A stretch of 64,000 bases of DNA from Paludibacteraceae bacterium (GTDB taxonomy: Bacteria; Bacteroidota; Bacteroidia; Bacteroidales; Paludibacteraceae): positions 1 to 64,000 of the forward strand of contig JAFTXV010000010.1 in the NCBI GenBank assembly GCA_017461505.1, in the 5' to 3' direction. How positions within the stretch are numbered: the stretch's first letter is position 1; the number at the start of each line of letters is the position of its first letter. Made by a program: the position numbers and the translations under genes. Positions 5,092 through 61,994 of this stretch are shown here, piece after piece. The notes under the pieces were generated by a model. The model saw nothing but the letters and a program-made list of their open reading frames with translations, was not told the origin of the DNA and did no database searches.

Positions 5092-6296
5092 TAAATTTTA
5101 GCGCGTTTCATACGTTTCTTAATATTCACTTGCACTACGCACCAGTCGATGAGTGGAGCAAAAGCGTTCATGAGGAGGATTGCCAACATCATACCCTCTG
5201 GATAACCGGGGTTGAGTACGCGAATCACTACAGCCATGAAACCGATCAATGCACCATAAATCCACTTACCGCACTCAGTACGAGCAGAGGTAACAGGGTC
5301 AGTTGCCATGAAGACAGCACCGAACATGAAACCACCTGTAACGAGGTGCATGTACCATGGGTAGTTAGCCGCAGCAGTCTCTGCACCAAACTCATTGAAG
5401 AGCCAAGCGGTGAGTGCACCACCAGCGAAGATGCTAAGCATGGTCTTCCAGCTTGCTACGCCAGTTACGATGAGCAATGCAGCACCGAGCAAGATAGCCC
5501 AGCAGCAAGTCTCGCCAATAGAACCTGGGATAAGACCGTTGAAGGCAGTCCAGAAGTCCACTGGCATGAGGTTAGCCTCAGCAGAAGTAGCGATTTGGGT
5601 GAGTGGGGTAGCACCAGAGAAACCGTCAACGAGGGTTTGTCCGTTGTCCCAGCCCCAAGTACCTTCGGTACGAACGAAGCACTTGTCACCAGTCATGTGG
5701 GTAGGATAAGCAAAGAAGAGGAACGCGCGCGCGATGAGAGCGACGTTGAAGATGTTGTAACCTGTACCGCCGAATACTTCTTTTGCAAAGATTACCGCAA
5801 AAGCAGTAGCCACAGCCACCATCCAGAGAGGAGTGTTGATTGGCACGATAAGAGGAATAATCATACCTGATACGAGGAAACCTTCTTGGATTTCTTCTTT
5901 CTTCCATTGTGCTACGGTGAACTCGATACCGAGACCTACACCATAGCTAACGATGATATATGGCAACACAGCCAACGCACCAAATGCGAACGCCTTCCAG
6001 AACATTGCGCAGGTCATAGCGCCACGCACCAACTCGCCAGTAGCGAGGAAGTGTTGGTAACCTACGTTGAACATACCAAAGAGCAGTGCTGGAACGAGTG
6101 CCATTACCACAAGGATCATGGTTCGCTTGCTATCCGAACCGTCGTGGATCTGCGAACCTACGCGCTTAGCGGTAGTGTTTGGGGTGAAGAGGAAAGTCTC
6201 GAAACCGTCAAACAACGAGTGCAGCGCGGACAACTTGCCACCCTCTGAGAAGGTAGGGCGAAGTTTCTCTACTATGTTATGTAATTTCTTTAGCAT
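5091..6296 (-). CDS. nqrB: Na+-translocating NADH:quinone reductase subunit B
   Basis: NqrB is the large membrane subunit with covalent FMN and riboflavin; it drives sodium across the membrane. It has about ten hydrophobic helices and the flavinylation motif in GFSGATPLTQIAT, with the modified Thr about residue 230. I place the start at the ATG at 6296, which shares its A with the nqrA stop (TGATG). A GTG one codon upstream would also keep the frame. Its stop overlaps the nqrC start. Length (401) is normal. Confidence 0.97.
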   Translation of the reverse strand: MLKKLHNIVEKLRPTFSEGGKLSALHSLFDGFETFLFTPNTTAKRVGSQIHDGSDSKRTMILVVMALVPALLFGMFNVGYQHFLATGELVRGAMTCAMFWKAFAFGALAVLPYIIVSYGVGLGIEFTVAQWKKEEIQEGFLVSGMIIPLIVPINTPLWMVAVATAFAVIFAKEVFGGTGYNIFNVALIARAFLFFAYPTHMTGDKCFVRTEGTWGWDNGQTLVDGFSGATPLTQIATSAEANLMPVDFWTAFNGLIPGSIGETCCWAILLGAALLIVTGVASWKTMLSIFAGGALTAWLFNEFGAETAAANYPWYMHLVTGGFMFGAVFMATDPVTSARTECGKWIYGALIGFMAVVIRVLNPGYPEGMMLAILLMNAFAPLIDWCVVQVNIKKRMKRAKI

Positions 6297-42695: not shown

Positions 42696-42889
42696 ACTTA
42701 GCTAGAAAACTTCCTTTTTTCGGAGGGAACCCGCCCCGTAGGGGAAGGGGCGTGCCGAAAAAATGCACATACCTGCGTCCGAAGGTACTACAGGTCGCTT
42801 AATGCGAGGACGTAGTCCGCATATCGAGTAAGTTTGCTTATTTGTCGTGATTACTCCCCCAAAATCCTTATACTAATCCTTTAGAAATT

Positions 42890-42955
42890 ACGTAGCATAT
42901 ACGTAGGATATACGTAACATATACGTAGGATAAACGTATGATATACGTAATATTT
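42890..42955. repeat. 11-bp tandem array, six units
   Basis: Units acgtagcatat, acgtaggatat, acgtaacatat, acgtaggataa, acgtatgatat and acgtaatattt, exactly 11 bp each. It lies in the gene-free stretch 42497-43643. That stretch also holds the fold-back element, small hairpins, composite repeat R1 and the A1 promoter and leader. Confidence 0.88.
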
Positions 42956-43114: not shown

Positions 43115-43312
43115 AATTGACACTAATTGACGAACTAAATTGACATTAATTGTCGTTTAATTATTAAAAAAAGATATTAATTATTAACTATTAATTGAAA
43201 TAATCCCCGCCCTCGGGCGACAACATAACCAAAGTTTAGAGCGAAGCGATAAAAGCTCCCCGCCTTTAACCTCTCACCTCTCACCTCTCACCTCTAACCT
43301 CTAACCTCTAAT
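43115..43312. repeat. AT-rich repeat plus composite repeat R1
   Basis: 43115-43220 is identical or nearly so to 46922-47029 (attgacactaattgacg ... tgaaataatcc). It leads into composite repeat R1 (43205-43312): a CCCTCGGG hairpin, acaacataaccaaag, tttagagcgaagcgataaaa, ctccccgcc, and seven 7-mers (cctttaa, three cctctca, three cctctaa). Confidence 0.85.
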
Positions 43313-43379
43313 CTTGTAAGTCAAGGGTGGGGTAGAAAACAAGAAAAAGAAATATAATTGCAAAAAAACTTCTCAAATA

Positions 43380-43411
43380 TTTGGTCATTCCAAAAAAAAG
43401 CAGTACCTTTG
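43380..43411 (+). promoter_or_regulatory. Promoter of the A1-B1 operon
   Basis: TTTG (43380-43383), a 20-bp spacer and TACCTTTG (43404-43411). The stretch from about 43375 to 43423 is nearly identical to the A2 promoter at 58316-58364. The leader to the A1 ATG is about 230 nt. Confidence 0.82.
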
Positions 43412-43423
43412 CACCCAAATTTC

Positions 43424-43600
43424 GCTTGCGCTAGCACGCGCATCGCGTGATACTAAGGTGTACGCCACCTAAAATGGACATATATATTGCGATGTAAACG
43501 CTTTGGTTTCAGTTCGAACTTCGCAACTTCTTGAAACTTAATAACCCAAAGATTTACAGCAGAGATACTCGTTTGTATCCCGCTGTGCTTTTGTTATGTC
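43424..43600 (+). promoter_or_regulatory. Long structured leader of A1
   Basis: It holds small hairpins (CACGC-gcatc-GCGTG; AGGTG-tacgc-CACCT) and a conserved block at 43511-43551 (agttcgaacttcgcaact ... gaaacttaataa) shared with the A2 leader. A hairpin at 43556-43585 follows (acagc..gatac/gtatc..gctgt), trailed by gcttttgtt. This could be an attenuator or an RNA switch; function unknown. Confidence 0.55.
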
Positions 43601-43643
43601 GATGGATGTAATAAATGGTAAATTTGGTTATAAGTTATAAGAA

Positions 43644-44540
43644 ATGAACAAAAGTCTGAACGTATTTTTAAGTGTATTACTGTGTTTTGTATTGTGTGCA
43701 GGTGTGCTCACATCGCTTTATACCACCGATGATTCCGCTTCTCAGCACTATCAAACGGAATATACATCTTCTATTCCTACTGGCATAGACGCTCCTTCGG
43801 TATCTTTTGGTGTAGGGGCTAATGGTGACGTCTTGGCAGTCCCCATGTCCTCTCGCCGCTCTTCGCGAGAGCAATATCTACAGCCGTCAAGGCGATCTAC
43901 AGGCGTAGCCGATCTACAGGGTTTTTCCCGATCTGCTAACTCAACAGGCATGTTATCTCTCCCTTCCCTTCAGGGAGGGGATGGGGGTAGGCTTTTCACT
44001 CATATGTCTTCCTCTCAAACGATGAAGTCTTTTGGTGGTGGCAGTAATGCAGCAGGTGTCTCTATGTCTGGCGGTGTGGTATCTACCAATAGCCAATCAC
44101 CAATATCTAATAGCCAACTATCCATTCTTACTCTTCCAACACCAATGTTTACGTCACAACAAATGCTTGCCGATGCACCAACGATGGCTACGTATGAAGA
44201 TGTAGCTGCGCCAAGAGGAATAGCAGGAAGAAGAGATGTTCCCATCATAGGTGGTGGAGAAAGTGATGAAAGTTCGTTTATGAATATTCTAATAAATATT
44301 TGTGGTGGAGCTGCCAATTGGAGTTTGACCGATGCTCAGTTACGGGCGAAATGGGAGGTGTATTACGCGCTTCATGGAAATGCACCAGATTATTGGGATG
44401 CGTTTTTGAGTTGGTATCAGAATCTTCGTACATTACCAGAGGGTACTCCGGTAGGGGATGCTATTCCATGTATGCTTTTATTGTCAATTATCTTTGTAGT
44501 ATATACGTATATCCGTCGTAAAAAAATCAATACTATATGA
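43644..44540 (+). CDS. Surface-anchored protein A1 with variable middle (paralogue of A2)
   Basis: The 298 residues begin with a hydrophobic segment (NVFLSVLLCFVLCAGVL) and end with a tripartite tail: PVGDAIP, a hydrophobic stretch (about 276-290) and the basic RRKK. That tail resembles a protein-sorting or anchor signal. The middle has the conserved motif SSQTMKSFGGGSNAAGVSMS, shared with A2. On both sides lie segments written by repeat words: the aroQ-type word at 43897, a ccttcccttcagggaggg module at 43959 and 7-mers (ccaatag and so on) at 44086-44120. I do not recognise the family. Its stop overlaps the B1 start (ATGA), so A and B are co-expressed. Confidence 0.75.
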   Translation: MNKSLNVFLSVLLCFVLCAGVLTSLYTTDDSASQHYQTEYTSSIPTGIDAPSVSFGVGANGDVLAVPMSSRRSSREQYLQPSRRSTGVADLQGFSRSANSTGMLSLPSLQGGDGGRLFTHMSSSQTMKSFGGGSNAAGVSMSGGVVSTNSQSPISNSQLSILTLPTPMFTSQQMLADAPTMATYEDVAAPRGIAGRRDVPIIGGGESDESSFMNILINICGGAANWSLTDAQLRAKWEVYYALHGNAPDYWDAFLSWYQNLRTLPEGTPVGDAIPCMLLLSIIFVVYTYIRRKKINTI

Positions 44541-46504
44541 AAAAGTTTATCTTCTCTTTCATTGGCTTTGTAGCATTGTCAATGATGTGTATGCAATCTG
44601 CTATGGCAGAGGATGTGCAAGGTTCTTCATGTCTTAATCCTATTCCTTTGACAGAAGATTTTCAAATGACTATCTCTGAGCCTGGCTCTTATTGGTTCTC
44701 TTCATGGACATATGATTTGCCGTTGAAAGTACGTTATACTCCTAATGAAGACACAGATGAGAAACTGCTTGCTTATGTAGATTTTTCTTGCACGCCAGGT
44801 GTCTATGATGATCCTAATCTCGTAGAGTTGACAGATATGGCTTCTGGTTGGGGGATTGAGATGCCGATTTCATTCACACCTATAACAACGAGCATAAATG
44901 GGGTGAAACTTTTTGAGATTAGTGTAAATGAATCTCACCGCGAACTGATGCGTCAGTTTGGTATTTCATACGATGTGAAAGCTTTGGTAGAGGTTATTGT
45001 TCCCGTTCCTGGTAAGGTGGAATTGGTTCCTGATACTGTTTTCCGCAATTGTATCGAAAGCAGTCGTTGGCTTCAGTTGCCTGATACAATAGATATTAGC
45101 CCTATAGAGTGGGACAATACTTACGTCTTCCCTCTATCCGATTGGGTAAATGATTCTATTCGTATTACTTGGACAGGCGCTGAACGACCTCTTACCTTAT
45201 GGCTTGGTAAGGATTGTAGTTTTTCGCTTGATGAGACGGATGACCTATTTGCTTGCAAGTTTGAAATACCAGCAGGTGGAACACTTGATTTCTCTGCAAA
45301 TACATTACATGATTTGCAACAGTATGGTTCATTGCTTTATGCTAAACTTGTTTCTGCTGAAACAGCAACGCTTACTTGGGATTACAAACCTATGTCACCA
45401 GAAATGGCACGTGCTATTCCAATGGCTCTTGACCAACCAGTATCAGTGAAAGCTGATGATATGGAGCAATACTACTATTTCAAGAAAGAACTAACTAATA
45501 ACTCACTACAATTCAATGCCACAAAGCAGGATACGATTATAGCATATTTCGGTACTACGCCTACTTTCGAATTGGAATCAACTGACCATGTTGCTACTTT
45601 CACATTGTATCCAACCAGTGGCGGTAGTCAACTTGCATTGTCAAAGAAACAGCTTGTAGCGTTTACTCGAAACGTCGAAACAGAATACATGTTTGTACGT
45701 TTTGATGCACCTCGTGCAACCGACATGACTCTTTCTATATGGGGAGCTTCTAGTTGTATTAATAATAGTATAGAGATTCTCCCTAATGGAGTGACTGCTA
45801 TTGCTGCCAATTCCTCATCAACAATTTATCGTATTGATTACTACAAATGGTATCAAGGCGATGTGGAGTTATTATGGGATGGATCACAGTCTGTATATAG
45901 CTATTTAGCAGACACTTGTTCTTTCACATTGTCTGCATCCAATGCACGTGTGATTGACTATAAATCAATTGCTAAAACAAATGGTACACATATCATTACC
46001 AAATCTCTATTAGATTCAGTCGCTGATCGCGTGGATGGCGATGGCTATTTATATTTCCGCTTTAATTCTCGTCGTAAAGGAAACTTAACTACTACCCAAA
46101 CGCTGGATAGTGCCTTTATCAATCCAGTTGAACCCGATCTCCCAGCAGTGCCTACTACCGAGTGCTCACTCTCCAGCCTCCCATTGGCGCAAGGCGACCA
46201 AGTCACTCTCAACCTCGATAGTGCATTCACTGTATATCGCATTGATTATAAGGCATGGCTCAACTCAGGTGCTACTCTCGCATGGAATGGTGCAGAAGCA
46301 TTGCACACCTTTGTAGCAGAGACCTGCGCGTTCGCGCTCGCGCCATATAACAGGTACGTGCTCGCGTACATACCTGTACCTGCGCAAGGCAATATCGTGT
46401 TGGATGCTATCCAATTGGCAGCAATGGAGGAGTATGTATCCGAAGATGGCTTCCTCTACATCCGCTTCCTCACCAAAGAAGAGGGTGTATTAGAGGTAAT
46501 ATAG
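44537..46504 (+). CDS. Secreted protein B1 of unknown function (paralogue of B2)
   Basis: The 655-residue protein has a signal peptide (FIFSFIGFVALSMMCMQSAMA). It is beta-rich, with several related domains. The clearest pair is at the C-terminus (about 415-535 and 545-655), sharing a Cys start, YRIDYxxW, a W-x-G turn and a second Cys (ADTC/AETC). The first domain starts with SCLNPIPLTEDF and GSYWFS. It is paired with A1 through a 4-bp overlap. The last 370 bp are about 93% identical to B2 while the front parts differ strongly, and codon use shifts from T-rich to C-rich at that border. I know of no function; an adhesin or matrix role is a guess. Confidence 0.75.
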   Translation: MKKFIFSFIGFVALSMMCMQSAMAEDVQGSSCLNPIPLTEDFQMTISEPGSYWFSSWTYDLPLKVRYTPNEDTDEKLLAYVDFSCTPGVYDDPNLVELTDMASGWGIEMPISFTPITTSINGVKLFEISVNESHRELMRQFGISYDVKALVEVIVPVPGKVELVPDTVFRNCIESSRWLQLPDTIDISPIEWDNTYVFPLSDWVNDSIRITWTGAERPLTLWLGKDCSFSLDETDDLFACKFEIPAGGTLDFSANTLHDLQQYGSLLYAKLVSAETATLTWDYKPMSPEMARAIPMALDQPVSVKADDMEQYYYFKKELTNNSLQFNATKQDTIIAYFGTTPTFELESTDHVATFTLYPTSGGSQLALSKKQLVAFTRNVETEYMFVRFDAPRATDMTLSIWGASSCINNSIEILPNGVTAIAANSSSTIYRIDYYKWYQGDVELLWDGSQSVYSYLADTCSFTLSASNARVIDYKSIAKTNGTHIITKSLLDSVADRVDGDGYLYFRFNSRRKGNLTTTQTLDSAFINPVEPDLPAVPTTECSLSSLPLAQGDQVTLNLDSAFTVYRIDYKAWLNSGATLAWNGAEALHTFVAETCAFALAPYNRYVLAYIPVPAQGNIVLDAIQLAAMEEYVSEDGFLYIRFLTKEEGVLEVI

Positions 46505-46740
46505 ACTAAACCCCCTCCAAGGAGGGGATGGGCTTGCCTATTTTATGCCCCTTACTCGCCCCCTATCTCCATAGGGACTTCATCGGAACCTCATCGGAAT
46601 CTGATCGGAACCTGACCGAAGGATGCATAAGGGATAAGCATAGGATATATTAGGGATAAAACTCCCTCGCTACCCCGGCATATGCCGAGAAACGTGTTCT
46701 TTCTTTGTTTGTTGTCCCGAATACTATTCGGGTAATATAG
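46503..46740. repeat. Long repeat after B1, including an 11-bp array
   Basis: It matches 61702-61940 after B2 over almost its whole length. Parts: hairpin CCCCTCC-aa-GGAGGGG; 11-bp array 46570-46657 (catcggaacct, catcggaatct, gatcggaacct and so on, eight units); palindrome CGGCATATGCCG; hairpin CCCGAAT-act-ATTCGGG. The two loci diverge right after the last hairpin. The 760-bp gap to the next gene continues with the items below. Confidence 0.85.
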
Positions 46741-46868
46741 GGAAAATTCTCTGCCTTTCTCCTTCCCTTTCGGGAGGGTTGGGGTAGGCTAATAACCGTG
46801 GCTCCGCCTCTAGTACTACTAGAACAACTAGTGCTACTACAAGCGGCTCCTCCGCCCCAACAACCTCT

Positions 46869-46917
46869 CATTTGTGGATTGCCAATGTGCGTTGCACATT
46901 CTTCCAATCCACAAATG
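46869..46917. repeat. Stem-loop, copy 2 of a covarying pair
   Basis: Outer stem CATTTGTGGATTG/CAATCCACAAATG is a perfect 13 bp. The inner hairpin is ATGTGC/GCACAT. Compared with copy 1 at 43060 both arms changed together, while the loop words (gccaatg, attcttcca) stayed. Confidence 0.7.
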
Positions 46918-46921
46918 GAGA

Positions 46922-47121
46922 TAATTGACACTAATTGACGAACTAAATTGACATTAATTGTCGTTTAATTATTAAAAAAAGATATTAATTATTAACTATT
47001 AATTGAAATAATCCCCGCCCTCGGGCGAACAACATAAACCAAGGTTTAGAGCGAAGCGATAAAAGATCCCCGCCTTTAATCTCTCTCCTCTAACCTTTAA
47101 CCTAAATAGCGGCTCCGCCGC
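46922..47121. repeat. AT-rich repeat plus composite repeat R2
   Basis: 46922-47029 repeats 43115-43220. R2 (47013-47121) has CCCTCGGG, acaacataaaccaag, gagcgaagcgataaaa, 7-mers (cctttaa, tctctct, cctctaa, cctttaa, cctaaat) and a final hairpin GCGGC-tcc-GCCGC. Confidence 0.85.
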
Positions 47122-47205
47122 ATAGTGATCTTTGACATAGTGATTCCATAAGGAATAATCGTTAAATAATAGAAAGTTTTTTCTGTACTTTTTGTGTTTA
47201 ACTAA

Positions 47206-47237
47206 TTTGTATATCTCAAAAAAAAGTTGTACCTTTG
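47206..47237 (+). promoter_or_regulatory. Promoter of the yhcG-type gene
   Basis: TTTG (47206-47209), a 20-bp spacer and TACCTTTG (47230-47237), 27 bp before the ATG. Confidence 0.8.
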
Positions 47238-47264
47238 CACCGCAAAAGCAAAAATTAGACTATT

Positions 47265-48344
47265 ATGGCTACAGAGATTCAACTAACTGCTTCAGAACAA
47301 CTTGAGACATTACAACTCTATACGGATGTGTGTAATATTATTGATGATACGCGCAATCGTATAGCTGTATATGTGAATTCTGAAGTGTGCCACACTAATT
47401 GGCGTATTGGCAAGCGAATTAAAGAGGATGTTCTCTTTAATAAGCGTGCAGAATATGGCAAGCAAGTAGTTAAGAATCTTTCCGTTAGACTAACTGAAAG
47501 ATATGGCAAAGGTTGGAGTTTACAGACCCTGCAACATTGTATACGCGCTGCGTATACTTTTACGGAAGAAGAAATTGTATACGCAGTGCGTATGCAATTC
47601 AGTTGGACTCAACTGCGTTCAGTAATGTTTATCCCCGACCCTCTTGCTCGCCAGTTTTATATGCAAATGTGTCAATATGAGCATTGGAGTACGCGCAAAT
47701 TAGAGGAGAAGATTGATAGCCAATTGTACGAGCGTACTGCTATCAGTCGACGTCCAGAGGAAGTAATTCGCCAGGCCTTGGATGAGCATGCAGAAAAGCA
47801 AATGTTGGTGCCAGACTTGGTGTTTAGAAGTGGTTACTTTTTAGATGCCCTTGGTCTGCCAGATTACTTTTCTGAAAAGGATTTAGAGAATGCTATCCTA
47901 TCACAAATGCAAGCATTCCTCAATGAGATGGGCACTGACTTTGCTTTCCTTGCGCGCCAAAAGCGTATAACGATTGATGCTACGGATTATTATATAGACT
48001 TGCTGTTTTATCATCGTGGTTTGCATAGATTGGTGGCTATAGATTTGAAGTTGGGTAAATTCAAACCTGAGTATGAAGGTCAGATGCGATTGTATTTGCG
48101 ATACCTCAACCAGAATGAGAGACATGCGGGAGAAGATTCTCCTATCGGCTTGATTCTTTGTTCAGAGGGCAATACAGAGCATATTGAGTACCTAATGTTA
48201 GATGAAGATAGTCCGATAAAGGTGGCGCAGTATTATACGCAATTGCCTGATAAAAAACTCCTTTCTGAAAAGTTGCAGCGTGCTATTGCTATCGCTCGTG
48301 AGCATTATGCAGAACAAAGAGGTAACAAAAAGGTATTAGAATAG
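47265..48344 (+). CDS. YhcG-type protein (DUF1016 N-domain plus PDDEXK nuclease)
   Basis: The 359-residue cytoplasmic protein has an N-terminal DUF1016 domain (VNSEVCHTNWRIGKRI, GWSLQTLQHCIRAAY) and a C-terminal PDDEXK-type nuclease fold with YYIDLLFYHRGLHRLVAIDLK carrying the Asp and D-x-K residues. Homologues are common in mobile and defence-rich regions, and a restriction or recombination role has been suggested. It stands alone with its own promoter and terminator, between composite repeats R2 and R3, which supports acquisition as an independent module. Confidence 0.9.
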   Translation: MATEIQLTASEQLETLQLYTDVCNIIDDTRNRIAVYVNSEVCHTNWRIGKRIKEDVLFNKRAEYGKQVVKNLSVRLTERYGKGWSLQTLQHCIRAAYTFTEEEIVYAVRMQFSWTQLRSVMFIPDPLARQFYMQMCQYEHWSTRKLEEKIDSQLYERTAISRRPEEVIRQALDEHAEKQMLVPDLVFRSGYFLDALGLPDYFSEKDLENAILSQMQAFLNEMGTDFAFLARQKRITIDATDYYIDLLFYHRGLHRLVAIDLKLGKFKPEYEGQMRLYLRYLNQNERHAGEDSPIGLILCSEGNTEHIEYLMLDEDSPIKVAQYYTQLPDKKLLSEKLQRAIAIAREHYAEQRGNKKVLE

Positions 48345-48373
48345 TAGAAGTATCTATACATAAAAGTGCTTTT

Positions 48374-48409
48374 AAGCGATTATTCCAACAAGCGAATAAT
48401 CGCTTTTTT
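48374..48409 (+). terminator. Terminator of the yhcG-type gene
   Basis: AAGCGATTATT and AATAATCGCTT form an 11-bp stem followed by TTTTTT, 30 bp after the stop codon. Confidence 0.9.
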
Positions 48410-48463
48410 GTATATGGAATCATTGTAATCAAGAGATATTAACTATTAACTATTAACTGAACA

Positions 48464-48570
48464 CCCCGCCCTCGGGCGACAACATAACCAAAGTTTAGAG
48501 CGAAGCGATAAAAGCTCCCTGCCTTTAACCTCTCTCCTCTAACCTTTAACCTAAATAGCGGCTCCGCCGC
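48464..48570. repeat. Composite repeat R3
   Basis: It has the same order and orientation as R1 and R2: CCCTCGGG hairpin, acaacataaccaaag, tttagagcgaagcgataaaa, 7-mers, then GCGGC-tcc-GCCGC. Three attaact 7-mers (from about 48440) precede it. Confidence 0.88.
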
Positions 48571-48654
48571 ATGAAACGCACCATAGGTGCATGAAATGTC
48601 CGCTAGCGGACAGATAACGCAGCTCTGCTGCACACAACGCTCGGCTTGCCGAGC
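48558..48654. repeat. Run of five small GC-rich hairpins
   Basis: GCGGC-tcc-GCCGC (48558), GCACC-ata-GGTGC (48578), GTCCGC-ta-GCGGAC (48598), GCAGC-tct-GCTGC (48619) and GCTCGG-cttg-CCGAGC (48639), at a spacing of about 20 bp. Stem sequences all differ, but size and spacing are alike. No gene is here. Confidence 0.85.
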
Positions 48655-48694
48655 AAAAAAGCGATCTTTGAAATATTGACATATTTGGATATAG

Positions 48695-48728
48695 AAAACG
48701 ACAACCCATTTGTGTGGATTGTCGTTTA
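48695..48728 (-). terminator. Terminator of the AAA/DUF4143 gene
   Basis: AACGACAA and TTGTCGTT with an extended inner stem. On the minus strand TTTTCTAT follows, about 30 bp downstream of the stop. Confidence 0.75.
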
Positions 48729-48756
48729 GGGAGTGTGAAATGGTTTTAGGTGGAAT

Positions 48757-49965
48757 TTAGTATAGGAATCCGAATAGATATAACGGAATGCTATTCCCGA
48801 CACAATATTCCATTTCATCCAAAGCAAGAAAACTATTCGGTATATCTTTGATTTGTTGGAATGTTTTACTTCGTCCTCCAATTTCAAATGTATATGTTTG
48901 ATCTACTTTGAAATCTCCGTGTGTTGGCATTTCTACTAAATGACCTTGGCGCAGTTGATTGAGAAAAAATGCCTCGCGCAATGTGCCAATGTTTACTTGA
49001 TTGGTCAATGCAAACATCTGGTTGGTGTTATTGAGGAATATTTTATCAGGTCGAGATAATGTTTTATAGCTTTTGCTCTCTTTGCTAACAAGCATCAATA
49101 GTCCAGCGCGTTCCATTAGATGCAGCAATTTGATGACAATATCACGTGTGGCTTCAATTTCGCGACATAGTGTACTGATGTTTGGTTCTAATGGAACTTG
49201 AGTTGCCAATAACATGAGTAGTTTTTGTGCTTTTTCTAATGTAGCAAACGATAGGTCTTCCACACGAGGAATATCTTGGTTGATAATCAGTTTCATTACT
49301 TGTCCCAATCGCATGAGGTAGTCTTGTTTGGCTTCTAATACAAAGGGGTAGTATCCCTCGCGTAAGTATTGCTCGAATAGTGGCAATGGCTTTATTTTAG
49401 ATGCTAAGTCCATTGCGATACTGGTATGATGCTCAATCAGGTGCTCCAAACTAATCGCTTCTGTGGATAGGATGTTGTGGAATAGCAGGTATTCTCTAAA
49501 CGAAAATCCATGCAATTCGTAAACGCTTTGTCGGCGAGATAAATCTGCTTGCGCATCATCGATTTGCAACATGGAGGAACCAGTATAAACGATTTTTAGA
49601 TCGCTGAAAGTATCAAATACTTGTTTGAGCATTTGTCCCCAATGTTTAGTGTAGTGTATCTCATCCACGAACAGGGCTTCAATCCCATGCGTATGAGCAT
49701 ACTCAGCTACATCATAAAGCGTTATGAGTTGAAACTGAAAATTATCCAACGAAATGTAAAGTGCTTTACTCAGATTGTTGTAATGTTCTTTGATATACTG
49801 TAAAATCATCGTTGTTTTACCTGTACCTCGTGCTCCTCGTATGCATATTAGTCGAGCATCCCAATTAATTTGATGGTAAAGATAGCGTTTGTTGCTTGTG
49901 TCCGTTTTTTGGATACGATGAAGATATTCATCTTGCAACATTCGAAATTGATTTTCTTGTATCAT
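48757..49965 (-). CDS. AAA ATPase with DUF4143
   Basis: The 402-residue protein shows Walker A RGARGTGKTT, Walker B ALFVDEIHY and a sensor in IVYTGSSM, typical of the AAA_14 domain. A DUF4143 C-terminal domain follows, with a winged-helix-like part (SFATLEKAQKLLMLLATQVP) and a late nuclease-like stretch (DQTYTFEIGGRSK). Such ATPases are widespread in Bacteroidetes, often in many copies; their job is unknown. It lies between R3 and R4, opposite in direction to its neighbours, with its own promoter and terminator. Confidence 0.9.
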   Translation of the reverse strand: MIQENQFRMLQDEYLHRIQKTDTSNKRYLYHQINWDARLICIRGARGTGKTTMILQYIKEHYNNLSKALYISLDNFQFQLITLYDVAEYAHTHGIEALFVDEIHYTKHWGQMLKQVFDTFSDLKIVYTGSSMLQIDDAQADLSRRQSVYELHGFSFREYLLFHNILSTEAISLEHLIEHHTSIAMDLASKIKPLPLFEQYLREGYYPFVLEAKQDYLMRLGQVMKLIINQDIPRVEDLSFATLEKAQKLLMLLATQVPLEPNISTLCREIEATRDIVIKLLHLMERAGLLMLVSKESKSYKTLSRPDKIFLNNTNQMFALTNQVNIGTLREAFFLNQLRQGHLVEMPTHGDFKVDQTYTFEIGGRSKTFQQIKDIPNSFLALDEMEYCVGNSIPLYLFGFLY

Positions 49966-49991
49966 AGTAGTAAAGTATTAAAAATTCGCTG

Positions 49992-50023
49992 CAAAGGTAA
50001 TGATTTTATTTTATAAAAGCAAA
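49992..50023 (-). promoter_or_regulatory. Promoter of the AAA/DUF4143 gene
   Basis: The minus strand shows TTTG (50023-50020), a 20-bp spacer and TACCTTTG (49999-49992), 27 bp before the ATG. Confidence 0.8.
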
Positions 50024-50269
50024 TAATCGGGTAAATTTTACTTTTGAAAAAGTGATTTTATGTGTTATTTTCGCTTTTAGAAAAGTAATCTGGTACAAAA
50101 AAGAGGTGTAGTGTTCGAAATTTTGGTGATTTGTCACTATTTTTTCGAGAATTTATATAATGAAGGGTTATAAGCTAAATATGTCAATAGTGCTTAGTTG
50201 CACAAATAATAACTATCGGGCACCGTTCATTGATTTGAACCTTGCTCACAAATATAAGCCACAGAAGTG

Positions 50270-50302
50270 CTATAGATGTCCTATAGATGTCTTATGGTGG
50301 TC
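50270..50302. repeat. Short 11-bp array before R4
   Basis: Two perfect units ctatagatgtc and one degenerate (ttatggtggtc). It lies in the 521-bp gap 49966-50486, which also holds R4 and the C1 leader but no gene. Confidence 0.7.
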
Positions 50303-50323
50303 GCGAAACAAGTAGTAAATTTT

Positions 50324-50431
50324 CGCCCTCTGGGCGACAACATAAAATAAAACTAGGTTTAGAGCGAAGCAAAGGTCCCCTGCCTTTAACCTTTCGCCTC
50401 TAACCTTTAACCTAACAAGCGGCTCCGCCGC
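50324..50431. repeat. Composite repeat R4
   Basis: It is the most diverged copy: CGCCCTctGGGCG, acaacataaaa, tttagagcgaagc, ctgcctttaacc with 7-mers (cctttcg, cctctaa, cctttaa), then GCGGC-tcc-GCCGC and agaatatta. The hairpin plus agaatatta also precedes C2 (61946). I found no TTTG-N20-TAnnTTTG promoter for C1. Confidence 0.82.
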
Positions 50432-50486
50432 CCAACAAGAATATTATTAACAACTTAAAAATAGCGCGAAGGCGCAAAAAAAGCTT

Positions 50487-53400
50487 ATGAAAAAGATATT
50501 GTCAATTTTAGTAATGGTACTCTTCGGAGTAGGTGCGCTGTATAGTCAAGGCTCTGTGACTGTATATGCATACGCAAATGTCAATACTAAAAGTCAAAGT
50601 AATTTAGGAGGTGGTCAAGTACAAGCACATGCTGCATCTCGCGAATGGAAGTCGGCGTCTGAATGGAACTCTGGCACAATAGGTAGCTCTTCATCTATTG
50701 TAGGATATGAGGCTAGAGGAACTAAATATGGCCCTTACTATAAAGTAAGTTATTCTGCTGATGCTTATCCTGATAATGGATATTATTTTTCTCATTGGCT
50801 AAATGAGAATGGAGAGACATTAACAGGTAAAGGAGATGCGAAAAATGGAATAAAGGACATAGAGCATTCGTGGGTCGGCTCTGGAAACACTAATGTTCAT
50901 GTTTATGCCATCTTTAAACCTGTTACAGTCACAGGTGCAGGTACGGTAACTAATATCTCTACTACAGACCTTGGTGGGGTGGGTACTGGTACTGTAACTT
51001 TCAATGTTGCAAATGCAGATAATGGCAAGGACTTTATAGCATCAATAGAAGGAGACGCGGGATTTAAAATTATTGAAGATCCAACGTGGACAGACAATGT
51101 AGTCACTATTACTATCCAATATACAGATCAGAATAAACATGGTACAAATATTGCCTCTACCAAAGTGACCCTTACTTCTAAAGGTGATCCTAATAGTAAG
51201 GCTACTGCCACGGTTTATGCGACATCCAACCTAACTCCAACCTTTACCAAACCTGCTGACTATAATTATGGTACAATCTATGCAAACGATATTTTAAGTA
51301 GTGAAGATAAGCTACATGTCATCACTAAAAACCACGCAGCATCCCAAGCATCTCCTGCAGCAACTTGGACTGCTTCCCTTAGTGGAACCAATTCTAATCA
51401 ATTCCAACTTGTCAATGCAAATCCACAATATGGAGCATTCGAAGTGATTTACAAACCAACTGAAGTAGGAACTCATACTGCTACATTGAGTATTAGTGTT
51501 ACATATACTGACGCAAAAGGTACAACCATTCCTTCTGGGGAAGCACAAATAGTTACGTTAACTGGTCAAGCAGAACAGCCTACAATTTCAGCAATAGTCT
51601 TTAACCCTACTGCTGTGGATTTTAACGAGCAAGTAACAGGTTATACTGGAAGTCAAAAAGTGACTGTATCTCAACAAAATGTAGCAAATGTAGAGTATAG
51701 TTGGGGAGAAACGAACGCTGCAAATGTGTTCTCTTATGCTATTGCTGCTGGTTCGGTGACAATATCTGCTAAGCCTACCGCACCAGGCAACTATAACGCT
51801 ACTTTAACTGCTACAGGTGAGGATACGCGTAATGAGTATCTAGGACAGCAAACAAAGCAAACTTTGAACGTTTCCATTGCTGTTGGCTTGCAATCGCCTG
51901 TACTACAAGGCGGCTCAAATCTCAAAGATACATACTATCTCAAATGGAATAAGATTCCTCATGCCTCTACGTACAATGTGTATGAAGTAAATGGAGATAC
52001 GAAATCACTGATATCAGCTACGGACGTCGCTGATGATGGAACATATATTACTAGAAGTATCGCCTCTACCGCTGCCACTAAAACATATATCATTGAGGCA
52101 GTAGGAACGTATAAGGATGTGGAATATAAGTCTTGGTCAAATCAAGTGACGCTTAACCTCAATACCCTAACACAAACGGGTACACCGTATTTGGATATAT
52201 ATACAGGTACAAACCTAACTAATCTGAAAGCAGCCGGATTTGCATCAACAGGGACTGTTGTGCCAAAAAAGAAAGTGAATTTAATAAATACTTTTGATGT
52301 GAATGGCAAGCCATTGTTTGATGAATTATATGTGTTCGGAGAAACAGTTTCTTCAGATGGTAAGACCACTATGACTGCTGCCACTACCTCAGCTGTCAAT
52401 ACTGCGGTGACGCCATGTTATGTGTTTACTAAAACTGCCGATGGATATGAATTGATTCCTGGTGAGAATGGCGGACCAACCATCGGCAATGTCAATCAAG
52501 CTGAGAAGCCCCTACCAAATACCACCGACCGTTGTTGGACAATTGCTGCGGGCGACAATAAGAAGTTGTACTTTACAGGCTTCTGCCCATTTGGCTCAAA
52601 TGGCTATTTGGCTTCTGATGAGGGAATACTCTATATCAAGGGTGAAGCTGGTGCAAGTGTGGATGTGTATTTAGAAGATTGCCAGTTGTATAGTCGTCAA
52701 CATAAAGAAAATGGTGATGCAGCTACTGCGCATAGTGCTATGGAGAGATTTACAGTACCAAGTCTCGGTGGTAACTGGTCTGATCATCGTGGTTCTGCAA
52801 GTGCAATCGTATTTGAATGTATTGGCGATGATAATATGGCAAATCCATTTCGTCCCACGATACATACAATGGGTGAGAATCTACTATATTCGCAGAAGGG
52901 ATGTTCTGGATATGGAAACCTGCTGGGCAAAGACTTTTACATTGGTCAATATTGTGCCAGCATGCAAGTGCGTGTGACTACAGAGACTTCTTATACAATA
53001 TTGTCGTTTGATGATAAATGGCCAACCAATGCGCAGAACTATGAGGAGCATAAACGCACTAATGGTTATATCGCATTTAAGAAACCGTCTACTAACTCTC
53101 CATCTATTGAAATAGGAAACAAGAATACGGTGGTGAATTTTAATGGTGGGCAGATTGAGTTGCAAAATAGTGCTCCTGCTAGTCCATATTACCTAAATAC
53201 GTTAGCAATCTGTTGCCGTTTAGGTGAGGCTACTATCTCTTTATCAGAAAGTTTAAGTATTCCTGCAAAAGTGGGATATGGTTTGGGAGGGGATGAAGTA
53301 GGTGGTGAGGTTAATTTTAATGATGGTACAGTAAATGCGCTGACATTTAAACCCAAAGCTGAACACTCGTCGTATTTTACACTAGATGAGAACGGGTTTT

Positions 53401-57925: not shown

Positions 57926-58315
57926 TTCTGTGTAGTCGGTTGCGTTTCGCAGAACATTTAAGATTGTTAGGAGGCATTTAAGGACTGTTCGTTAGAGCAT
58001 TTAAAATCTCTTTTGCTTGATGCGTAATAGATTATACAATAATCTATGTGGTTAGGAGGATGTGATTGCGCTATAAAGCTGGCTTTAGTAGCCAATAACA
58101 AACTGCTAAGCAAAAATGCGAGCCACGTGAGCATTAGCATAAAGCAAAAGAACAACTTTTTGAAATATTTTTAAGTATTTTTGTAGCAAACGTAGTGCAG
58201 CGTATTTTTGTTAACTAAAAAAGAAATCAACGATAATTGACATCAAAATTGACCTAAATTGTCGTTTAAAATCAAATAAGTATCTCCTCGTAATATAATT
58301 CTTAAAAAAATCCTC
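57926..58315. other. Gene-free stretch before the A2 promoter
   Basis: No convincing gene. It holds three copies of catttaag/catttaaa words (57955-58010) and, at about 58232-58270, a diverged form of the AT-rich repeat (ataattgacatcaaaattg ... ttgtcgtttaa) that precedes R1 and R2. No composite repeat is present here. Confidence 0.6.
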
Positions 58316-59724: not shown

Positions 59725-61703
59725 AAAATATCTTTACTAAGGCGCTCTTAATCGCGTCTATGACTATGATGTCAGTACTTCCTATGGCAGCTCAAGCAAT
59801 AGGAACGAGTTGTGAAAATCCTTATCTCGTGACTAAGGAGTTTAATACAGCTATTACTGAGCCTGGCTCCTATTGGTTCTCCGTAACTACCTATGATTTG
59901 CCATTGCGTGTACGCTACACACCAAGTGCACCTACTGATGAGGTAATGAAAGCATATGTAGATTTTTCTTGTACTCCAGGTGTATATGATGATCCAAATC
60001 TTTACGAACTCACAGATATGGCTAGTGGTTGGAATGTTGAGATGCCGATTACTTTTAGCGCAGATACAATAGAAGTAGATGGACAAGTGGTATATGAAGT
60101 GTTGGTAGAAGCTATGTATAGGGATCTTATGCGTTCATTTGATATTCTGTACAATGTAGAAGCTAAAGTAAATGTATATATTCCTCAAGCGGGCGCTGTG
60201 GCAGTGATTCCTGATACTATATTCCGTGATTGCATCGAGAGCAGCCACTGGATTACACTTGCAGATACCATGTCTATAGGACTTACAACCATAGATGATA
60301 CATATATTTTACCAATGAGAGATTGGCAAAATGATTCAATCTATTTTGAGTGGGGTGGCACTACTAGTCCAGTTCATATTTATGTGTCAGCAACCTCATG
60401 TGATTTTGTACCTTCTGATGACAATGTGTTTGTGACAAGTCATATCGTTCTTGATCCCACGAATGGTACACAATATTTGTCTATGACATCGCAAGAGATT
60501 CACAATTTCGTTAAAGATAATGGTAATGGTGGATTATATTATGCAAGGATTTTCTCAGCTGAAGAGGCGGAGTTGGTGGTGAACTACAAACCACTTTCTC
60601 CAGAAATGGCACGTGCTATCCCTATGGAATTGAACAAAGCGGTAGAGGTTAAGGTTAATGATGCTGAGCAATACTACTATTTCCGCAAAGATTGGAGCGA
60701 AAATTCGATACTCTTCCAATCTACTACTTCAGATACAATTATTGCCTATTTTGGAACTACCCCTACTTTTACTTTGGATGCTAGTGATGCAGCGTACATA
60801 GGTGCATACACGTTCTATCCTGAAGCAGGTCATACTTCGTTGTGTTTATCTAAAAAACAATTGAGCGAAATGGCGAATAAGTGTGCTACAGATCATATTT
60901 TTGTCCGTTTTGCTGTACCAAAGAATACCTTTGTAACTCCGTTCTTGTGGAGCGCAGGCATCTGCACTTCTAATAGTGTGGAGATCTTCCCTAACGGCGT
61001 AGTGAAATTAGCTGCTAATAAAAAGAATGATGTTTATCGTATAGATTTTGATAAATGGTCAATGGGTGATACAGAGGTTATCTGGAAAGGTTCTGCTACC
61101 AACAAAGTATATTTGGCAGATACATGTTCTTATACTCTATCGGCATCAAATAGTCATGTGATAACAGTCACAACACTTAAAAAGAATCAATCTTTTGTTA
61201 TTACCAAACAACTCTTGGATTCTATTGCGGATCGTGTAGATGCGGAAGGTTATCTCTATTTCCGCTTTGACACACGTGGTGCTGGTGAACTTCAAACCGT
61301 ATTTACTTTGGATACTACTGCTATCGTTATCCCCGATCTCCCTGCAGTACCTACCACCGAATGCTCACTCAGCAGCCTCCCATTGGCGCAAGGCGACCAA
61401 GTGGTGCTCAACCTCGATAGTGCATTCACTGTATATCGCATTGATTATAAGGCATGGCTCAAGTCAGGTGCTACTCTCGCATGGAATGGTGCAGAACCAT
61501 TGCACACCTTTGTAGCAGAGACTTGCGCGTTCGCACTCGCGCCATACAATAGGTACGTGCTCGCGTATATACCTGTGCCTGCGCAAGGCAATATCGTATT
61601 GGATGCTGCTCAATTGGCAGCGATGGAGGAGTATGTATCCGAAGATGGCTTCCTCTACATCCGCTTCCTCACCAAAGAAGAGGGTATATTAGAGGTAAAA
61701 TAG
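59721..61703 (+). CDS. Secreted protein B2 of unknown function (paralogue of B1)
   Basis: A frame opens upstream at 59619, but the signal peptide NIFTKALLIASMTMMSVLPMA starts at the ATG at 59721, overlapping the A2 stop, so I use that (660 residues). The domain layout matches B1: CENPYLVTKEF and GSYWFS at the front, VDFSCTPGVYDDPNL identical in both, and two Cys-containing C-terminal domains. The last 370 bp and the next 240 bp are nearly the same as in B1. The middle differs strongly. C2 follows 291 bp later. Confidence 0.75.
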   Translation: MKNIFTKALLIASMTMMSVLPMAAQAIGTSCENPYLVTKEFNTAITEPGSYWFSVTTYDLPLRVRYTPSAPTDEVMKAYVDFSCTPGVYDDPNLYELTDMASGWNVEMPITFSADTIEVDGQVVYEVLVEAMYRDLMRSFDILYNVEAKVNVYIPQAGAVAVIPDTIFRDCIESSHWITLADTMSIGLTTIDDTYILPMRDWQNDSIYFEWGGTTSPVHIYVSATSCDFVPSDDNVFVTSHIVLDPTNGTQYLSMTSQEIHNFVKDNGNGGLYYARIFSAEEAELVVNYKPLSPEMARAIPMELNKAVEVKVNDAEQYYYFRKDWSENSILFQSTTSDTIIAYFGTTPTFTLDASDAAYIGAYTFYPEAGHTSLCLSKKQLSEMANKCATDHIFVRFAVPKNTFVTPFLWSAGICTSNSVEIFPNGVVKLAANKKNDVYRIDFDKWSMGDTEVIWKGSATNKVYLADTCSYTLSASNSHVITVTTLKKNQSFVITKQLLDSIADRVDAEGYLYFRFDTRGAGELQTVFTLDTTAIVIPDLPAVPTTECSLSSLPLAQGDQVVLNLDSAFTVYRIDYKAWLKSGATLAWNGAEPLHTFVAETCAFALAPYNRYVLAYIPVPAQGNIVLDAAQLAAMEEYVSEDGFLYIRFLTKEEGILEVK

Positions 61704-61940
61704 ACTAACCTCCCCTCCAAGGAGGGGATGGGCTTGCCTATTTTATGCCCCTTACTTGCCCCTTACTTCCATCGGAACCTCATCGGAACCTGATCGGAAC
61801 CTCATCGGAACCTGACCGAAGGATGCATAAGGGATAAGCATAGGATATATTAGGGATAAAACTCCCTCGCTACCCCGGCATATGCCGAGAAACGTGTTCT
61901 TTCTTTGTCCATTATCCCGAATAGTATTCGGGTAATGCAA
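61702..61940. repeat. Long repeat after B2, including an 11-bp array
   Basis: It matches 46503-46740. The 11-bp array (61770-61857) has four atcggaa-type units where the B1 copy has three, showing gain or loss of whole 11-bp units. After CCCGAAT-agt-ATTCGGG the sequence goes directly to GCGGC-tcc-GCCGC and the C2 start. The gap to C2 (291 bp) has no gene. Confidence 0.85.
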
Positions 61941-61994
61941 CACCCCGCGGCTCCGCCGCTGAGAATTAGAATATTAAAAAAAACTATAAACAAT

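Follow-up and report, generated by a model that had tools for sequence, protein, structure and literature searches.

Putative boxA-led single-gene cassettes beside giant surface-protein genes in a genus of rumen Bacteroidales

Described systems and the present locus

Mobile insertion cassettes (non-autonomous transposons) carry one passenger gene between inverted ends and contain no internal transposase. The Xer/pdif modules of Acinetobacter plasmids are discrete gene modules between short repeats, with no recombinase of their own, and in rRNA operons boxA is followed by a processing stem. Chromosomal integrons and CALINs, as portrayed in PMC9024848, are arrays of single-gene cassettes with variable content and junctions that are partly uniform per genome. 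A passage of PMC7862264, citing Stringer et al., places boxA before CRISPR arrays.

The locus considered here lies in a window of 64,000 nucleotides, the whole stretch analysed, at the start of contig JAFTXV010000010.1 from a Paludibacteraceae bacterium. Its putative cassettes resemble mobile insertion cassettes in having one gene, inverted ends and no internal transposase, but their arms are family-specific, no short target duplication was found with them, a boxA is included and they form arrays with junction repeats. Like Xer/pdif modules they are discrete, lie between repeats and lack their own recombinase, whereas their junctions are about 100 bp long and run in one direction. As in the rRNA leader and before CRISPR arrays, a boxA-like element precedes a long stretch that needs transcription through; here, by contrast, that stretch is a mobile protein-coding cassette, and each cassette has one copy. 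Variable single-gene arrays with junctions partly uniform within a genome recall chromosomal integrons and CALINs, from which the locus differs in the promoter-like sequence of each gene, in the use of either orientation, in the boxA at the cassette start and in complementary arms around the whole gene. In the literature searched, a partial collection, we found no description of boxA-led gene cassettes.

Junction repeats and variable array content

The preliminary description had reported a composite repeat of about 100 bp (R) in four same-direction copies, and these are indeed present at 43205, 47013, 48464 and 50324, all on the plus strand (repeat families D1, D2 and D7). They are the only full-length copies in the 1.74-Mb assembly to which the window belongs (G000). 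A 131-bp R2 query gave 19 matches in that genome, comprising R1–R4 and 15 others restricted to the part with the 7-mer tail. The word GCGGCTCCGCCGC, with at most one mismatch, has six matches in the window against 0.02 expected, CGCCCTCGGGCG is exact at R1, R2 and R3 only, and 43115–43220 (R1) is 100% identical to 46923–47028 (R2) over 106 bp. Each R is made up of one cassette's end, a middle that varies between genomes and the next cassette's start, its parts being a shared hairpin block (CGCCCTCGGGCGACAACATAA), the variable middle with its 7-mer tail and a short hairpin ahead of the next cassette. R is the junction, and the mobile unit is the stretch between junctions.

Except where stated, features lie on the plus strand. 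R1 and its upstream block (43115..43293), 5' of gene A1, have no GCGGC hairpin, and no boxA was found there. The conserved surface-locus gene B1 (44537..46504), with homologues in 146 of 178 genomes of the genus, is followed by junction R2 with its upstream block (46923..47121). The yhcG cassette then begins with a boxA-like element (47124..47143; two mismatches to the pattern used) and a 5' arm (47137..47163; duplex −29.4 kcal/mol, z −6.1), continues with the yhcG-type gene (47265..48344), and closes with a 3' arm (48375..48426) whose blocks, 48375–48386 and 48413–48426, flank a terminator-like hairpin identified by eye. Beyond junction R3 (48464..48570), the second cassette has a boxA-like element without mismatches (48660..48679), a 5' arm (48674..48688, limits set by eye; duplex −19.7 kcal/mol, z −3.3), an AAA_14 ATPase gene on the minus strand, inverted relative to the array (48757..49965), and a 3' arm (50175..50193). 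Junction R4 (50324..50431) adjoins C1 (50487..55205), the gene for a giant surface-type protein that follows the array. Typically, a cassette starts with boxA, a family-specific 5' arm and a promoter; its single gene may point either way, and the complementary 3' arm that comes next often encloses a terminator.

At the paralogous, cassette-free site from the end of B2 to the start of C2 (61200..61996) there is one GCGGC hairpin (61947–61959). The B1 and B2 regions are alike before diverging, as had been proposed (45995–46736 against 61200–61936, 87%). The proposed insertion of about 3.7 kb between B1 and C1 holds in that cassettes do lie there, but they are two separate single-gene cassettes. 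The A2 locus has no full R copy, as was claimed, but does contain sequences related to the surroundings of R: a ttgac..gtcg motif occurs at 58249 (two mismatches), and the GCGGC hairpin is at 61947.

All genomes compared were draft assemblies. R-type junctions sit at the gene boundaries of arrays, in keeping with their suggested role as cassette boundaries, and the genes between them differ in every array-bearing relative read, with some contigs stopping inside the array. Since related species carry R-type junctions and other genes at the same site, interpretation of the B–C gap as a putative cassette array is supported. The window AAA unit (48657–50348) matches one in species G164 at 97.3% identity over 1,693 bp; its neighbour there is Bro-N rather than yhcG, and B1 and its C26 counterpart in G164 share only 27% identity over 531 aa. 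Other near-identical units in different species carry DUF4143 genes (92% over 1635 bp and 94% over 1655 bp). The R4 point, empty in the window, holds a DUF4143 cassette in G025, and in G164 and G183 the same flanks enclose two different genes. These alignments show cassettes common to several species irrespective of neighbours, and array content that varies between relatives. It appears that one genus of rumen Bacteroidales trades single accessory genes as cassettes beside giant surface-protein genes.

The yhcG-type label given earlier is borne out by DUF1016_N and YhcG_C domains; a comparison of YhcG with solved structures gave no match at E 0.001. For the gene first called AAA/DUF4143, AAA_14 was recovered but DUF4143 had no match at E 0.001; its relative in G025 matches AAA_14 and DUF4143, the latter just under the cut-off. 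PADLOC models match the YhcG (PDC-S02), AAA/DUF4143 (PDC-S01) and Bro-N (PDC-S13) cassette proteins, the first two including those of the window, and the ParE cassette protein has no PADLOC match. PDC stands for phage-defence candidate. Many of the traded accessory genes appear to be candidate phage-defence genes. Members of the serine resolvase family (PF00239) occur in 18 of 20 genomes, and Mpi-type invertases were seen among the cassettes in G196 and G041.

boxA-like elements and complementary arms

Cross-species homology begins at the boxA-like element in 18 of the 29 pairs compared; the other 11 involve Bro-N (three), part of yhcG (three), DUF4143_L039 (three), DUF4143a (one) and ParE (one). 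The Bro-N array of G166 has no boxA match. The element is the same sequence as in the organism's rRNA leader: boxA lies 130–156 nt upstream of 16S rRNA in four genomes (G000, G166, G062 and G039), and two further sites (G061 and G178) are <180 nt from a contig end. It shares the orientation of gene C in 23/23 cases from 10 array loci; five assigned cassette ORFs are antisense, yet boxA in the same loci still points with gene C. Among 59 genomes of other families the boxA pattern had 12 matches in 11 genomes, against one match for the control.

At a score threshold of 24, the sequence following boxA has its complement at the far end of the cassette at 65/87 sites (22 lack such an arm), compared with 7/86 upstream controls. 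None of 10,000 permutations matched the result for 33 non-redundant arms, and arm complementarity is shown to be well above control. Individually, only 12 of the 33 arms ranked their own body first and two passed the 99th percentile of mismatched pairs; the 5' arm of the window AAA cassette scores 33 at a site upstream, inside yhcG, against 26 at its own 3' arm. For AAA loci in other genera (80 kept, 57 listed by hand, 55 scorable), boxA together with matching arms was found only at L070, which is the G164 record itself. At score 28, inverted flanks were present at 4/55 of these loci and direct flanks at 16/55; the inverted layout is therefore not the general rule.

Competing explanations and the proposed cassette class

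On balance we consider it more probable than not that a small array of single-gene mobile cassettes, with boxA and arms, lies in the window between conserved B and giant surface gene C. If the cassettes were unremarkable and R a repeat dispersed through intergenic regions, ordinary homologous recombination between its copies could suffice, and this account could draw on the length of R, the identical 106-bp stretch shared by R1 and R2 and an array without an enzyme; as first described, no integrase or transposase is found among the ORFs of the window array. Yet cassettes are common to genomes with differing junction middles, the edge falls at boxA and not inside R in the 18 pairs noted above, full R is limited to the window locus in G000, and boxA and arms would be left unexplained; we regard this account as unlikely. 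Less probable again is that each R is a long target duplication made at insertion, as in CRISPR repeat duplication. In cassettes of G054, G014, G008 and G176, as in the yhcG unit of the window, the left repeat copy does stop 0–4 nt from boxA, and direct repeats of at least 40 bp flank 7/77 AAA relatives from other taxa against 9/319 control ORFs (p 0.02). Most isolated or symmetric cassettes (L204–L219), however, have no flanking direct repeat, and as a general origin of R we rejected the idea, which fits some cassettes only. The R2 junction had no match among phage and plasmid records, and the AAA alignment had no relative among viral contigs.

The cassette ends are sharp, and some cassettes carry an inward-facing boxA and arm at each end; both features would suit terminal inverted repeats that a transposase cuts in trans, with one passenger gene per element. 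One enzyme should want one sequence, whereas arms vary between families (the 33 non-redundant arms), and of 12 symmetric cassettes compared, one had a wrong left edge and the 11 correctly delimited ones have no direct repeat of at least 7 nt close to both edges; some symmetric cassettes have direct repeats of 4–6 nt at positions that do not match. The enzyme search covered the serine resolvase family noted above and Y1 transposases (Y1_Tnp), the latter exceeding the cut-off in 1/10 genomes and not in G000, and REP/RAYT elements were rejected with no Y1 (RAYT-type) transposase in G000. Such transposition is likewise improbable. That the array is an integron or a remnant with its integrase elsewhere is very improbable, single-gene cassettes in arrays and junctions alike within some genomes notwithstanding: a simple search on both strands found no attC core pattern (RYYYAAC ... 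GTTRRRY) in R1–R4, and the tyrosine recombinases of the two genomes checked fall far below the integron-integrase cut-off (TIGR02249, 265 bits), at 142.8 bits for the single one in G000, an assembly 82% complete, and 143.8, 103.8 and 35.2 bits for the three in G014. The G000 protein and one from G014 pass NF040815, a model for archaeal XerA that names integron integrase as well in its description, and their best-scoring identity is XerD. We rejected a CALIN on the same two results, although a CALIN does not require an integron integrase. Cassettes that start with boxA and end in a complementary arm do not match any of the gene-exchange systems tested.

Under the proposed array of boxA-led cassettes, boxA would recruit to read-through RNA an antitermination complex of the rRNA type, which would keep an inserted, sometimes antisense, gene from silencing C, while the arms may loop the cassette out of this transcript; the arms could also act as DNA rather than RNA. 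Least certain is how cassettes might be gained, lost and swapped; our best guess is recombination at arms and junctions, with general recombination and a trans-acting enzyme as candidate routes. More tentatively, these may be mobile gene cassettes of a new class, which mimic an rRNA transcription unit, are folded as RNA and, with no dedicated integrase, are swapped via arms and junctions.

If this is true, boxA and paired arms would let cassettes occupy transcribed surface-protein loci without cutting off the downstream gene, and a genus of rumen Bacteroidales would possess a platform on which single-gene phage defences are exchanged. The textbook platform for gathering single genes is the integron; the present cassettes would be another, differently built, whose unit would be marked by self-complementary ends and an antitermination signal of the rRNA type. 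Three questions would thereby become open to experiment: by what route single genes are disseminated when no integrase can be recognised, how candidate phage-defence genes travel between gut Bacteroidales, and why a gene is not silenced by an insertion in front of it.

Junction repeats and array content

The four composite repeats of about 100 bp that had been described in one shared orientation (R1–R4 at 43205, 47013, 48464 and 50324) were recovered there by repeat analysis of the window, and their hairpin words are far more frequent in the window than chance would predict. Each repeat links the end of a cassette with the beginning of the one that follows. The window array comprises a yhcG cassette (gene 47265..48344, forward strand) and an AAA cassette (gene 48757..49965, reverse strand) between the conserved surface-locus gene B1 and the giant surface-type gene C1 (50487..55205, forward strand). 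As also described, B1 and its paralog B2 are alike before they diverge (45995–46736 and 61200–61936, 87%), and B2 is followed by a GCGGC hairpin and then C2. A 131-bp R2 query matched its own genome, G000, 19 times: at R1–R4 and at 15 places restricted to the 7-mer-tail part. G000 has one type of R middle, and five G014 junctions have a different type (AATCCGCA...TGCGGATT, 7-mers reversed); the middles are mixed in G072 and G183, and some junctions have none. R may arise during insertion, travel with a cassette or be homogenized later.

Several other repeats were observed. Degenerate 7-mer runs (CTCTAAC, TTTAACC type) occur at 43259–43311 and at 15 other places in the genome, away from cassettes; 7-mer repeats in Beggiatoaceae are reportedly the subject of a paper. 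Intergenic runs of 11-bp units, resembling TACGTAGGATA or CATCGGAACCT, lie at 42889–42954 and 46570–46613. In both G000 (46868–46918) and G072 (locus L041, about 5100–5160) a longer stem-loop with the sequence TTTGTGGATTGCC...CCAATCCACAAA stands 3' of B. It belongs to a 137-bp block that is 85% alike in the two genomes, and is possibly a conserved array entry point.

B homologues were found in 146 of the 178 genus genomes analysed (E 1e-10). R-like copies or R HMM matches occurred in G000, G014, G025, G054, G066, G072, G164, G166, G183 and G184, and the 3'-block motif CGCCCTCGGGCGACAACATAAAA (up to three mismatches) at 20 sites in nine of the 178; its reversed control gave zero sites. Neither R HMM matches (E 0.01) nor panel cassette genes were detected at thirteen B loci that belong to more distant members (L056–L061, L063–L069; the L059 sequence stops directly after B).

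The preliminary description had likened the repeats to cassette boundaries, and gene content between R-type junctions indeed differs among relatives, every array read being unlike every other. Beside C, G000 carries yhcG and AAA at one site and nothing at the second; G164 carries Bro-N and AAA at C26, and AAA, yhcG, a 260-aa ORF and a 418-aa ORF abutting C at C9. The remaining arrays hold Bro-N (G166); two DUF4143-type genes, remnants and small ORFs (G184); ParE, DUF4143, part of yhcG, Bro-N, DUF4062, yhcG and a 417-aa ORF abutting C (G014); two DUF4143, yhcG and Bro-N (G054); an AAA flank, then DUF4143 (G025 C66, read from the contig end); remnants and yhcG (G072); and, in G183, ParE, two DUF4143 and part of yhcG on C7 (also read from the contig end) with Bro-N and DUF4143 on C13. 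Cassettes in array-bearing genomes also adjoin other giant surface genes. The genomes are all drafts assembled from metagenomes, with G000 at 82% completeness. Repeats could have misjoined contigs in them, but the same grammar across many assemblies argues against misjoins.

Cassette edges, boxA and complementary arms

Cross-species comparison of cassettes (29 pairs of at least 580 bp, eight gene families) placed the left homology edge no more than about 6 nt from a boxA-like element, which reads either (A)GYGATCTTTGA or GTTCTTTGA, in 18 pairs, with differing hairpins upstream. This edge was found in 6/6 pairs of DUF4143_L040, 6/6 of DUF4143_L037b, 5/6 of ParE and 1/1 of AAA. It lay elsewhere in 11 of the 29: in three pairs of the yhcG part; in one pair each of DUF4143a and ParE, where homology extends one hairpin further; in three Bro-N pairs, where it begins at the start codon or 7-mers; and in three DUF4143_L039 pairs, where it begins at a hairpin or inside. 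On the right, homology extends as far as ACAACATA of the R block in three pairs, each from a different family, and stops earlier in others. The left repeat copy stops 0–4 nt from boxA in several arrays.

By position, the element is the boxA of the genus's rRNA leader: it precedes 16S by about 140 nt in G000, by 148 nt in G166, by 130 nt in G062 and by 156 nt in G039. Allowing two mismatches, G000 has seven sites, of which the window array contributes two, an rRNA leader one, and other cassettes or short ORFs near surface genes four. Sites are present in 79 of 178 genus genomes, rRNA leaders counted; the reversed control gave no match among those listed. Ten of 11 array loci have boxA matches (L054 has none). 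The boxA strand is that of the downstream giant gene in 23/23 matches, those within one array not being independent, and five of the 23 go with an assigned cassette ORF in antisense orientation (one a doubtful 94-aa ORF). This uniformity is consistent with protection of read-through towards C, a step that we infer; promoter words were identified by eye.

Complementary arms lie at the 5' and 3' ends of many cassettes. The 39 loci retrieved contain 89 boxA sites, 87 of them scorable; scored against the reverse complement, arms reached the threshold of 24 in 65/87 downstream versus 7/86 upstream regions. In loci L218–L232, picked by boxA alone before the arms were discovered, the counts were 28/35 and 3/35. 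The window AAA arm is counter-evidence, scoring 33 upstream, within yhcG, versus 26 at its own 3' arm. Among 33 non-redundant arms the mean own-body score was 25.2 versus 18.7, equalled in none of 10,000 permutations; the own body ranked first for 12, and two scored above the 99th percentile for mismatched pairs, among which are pairs from related families. Relative to 5' arms shuffled in two-letter blocks, the window duplexes reach −29.4 kcal/mol (z −6.1) for yhcG and −19.7 kcal/mol (z −3.3) for AAA. In some cassettes each of the two ends bears a boxA and an arm.

Two side observations concern these elements. A 24-nt stretch inside yhcG (47655–47678) shows 88% complementarity with the arm of the AAA cassette (48673–48696). 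The boxA-led cassettes of L218–L232, from other genus members, have very different junction repeats, for example repeated words that end at boxA and measure 54 bp in G176 and 36 bp in G008.

Exchange between species and possible mechanisms

Sequence comparison indicates that cassettes move independently of their neighbours. The AAA unit (48657–50348) has a counterpart at G164 C26 that matches it at 97.3% identity over 1693 bp but has Bro-N to its left, and the B proteins of these two loci share 27% identity over 531 aa. One DUF4143 unit is common to G014 and G184 (92% over 1635 bp), another to G025 and G054 (94% over 1655 bp). At R4 the window runs from AAA flank to C1; at the equivalent in G025, an AAA flank (85% to 50034–50434) and R are followed by a DUF4143 unit and then the C leader (86% to 50414–50533). 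Outside the B–C gap, L205 4098–5779 (G164) and L208 1362–3083 (G183) have common outer flanks and arms around different genes, a 394-aa ATPase versus a 427-aa DUF4143 protein, and represent a cassette swap. Their flanks match over 160 bp at 98%, 98 bp at 98% and 182 bp at 88%, each partly within the unit.

Exchange via arms and junctions best fits the G164/G183 swap. Cassettes may instead be moved by an as yet unnamed enzyme. The window array holds no recombinase ORF, in agreement with the earlier remark that integrase and transposase are absent, and target duplications of at least 7 nt were not found at the edges of 11 symmetric cassettes. G000 encodes one tyrosine recombinase and G014 three, two of them Xer-like and one unassigned; these score far under the integron-integrase cut-off. 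A Y1 transposase exceeded the cut-off in 1/10 genomes, and serine recombinases occurred in 18/20. Mpi-type serine invertase genes sit amid boxA-led cassettes in L223 (5426–6028, G196) and L231 (3829–4476, G041).

In other taxa, AAA_14 relatives have flanking direct repeats of 50–158 bp (L084, L089, L073, L113, L115, L124, L132), amounting to 7/77 such genes versus 9/319 control ORFs; the L124 repeat is the start of an nqrE-like gene.

The window system works like an integron array, but it did not show the integron features tested, nor those tested for a transposon family. The combination of boxA, arms and junctions is unmatched in the known families testable here, and would by its anatomy constitute a new category, for which the mechanism is proposed.
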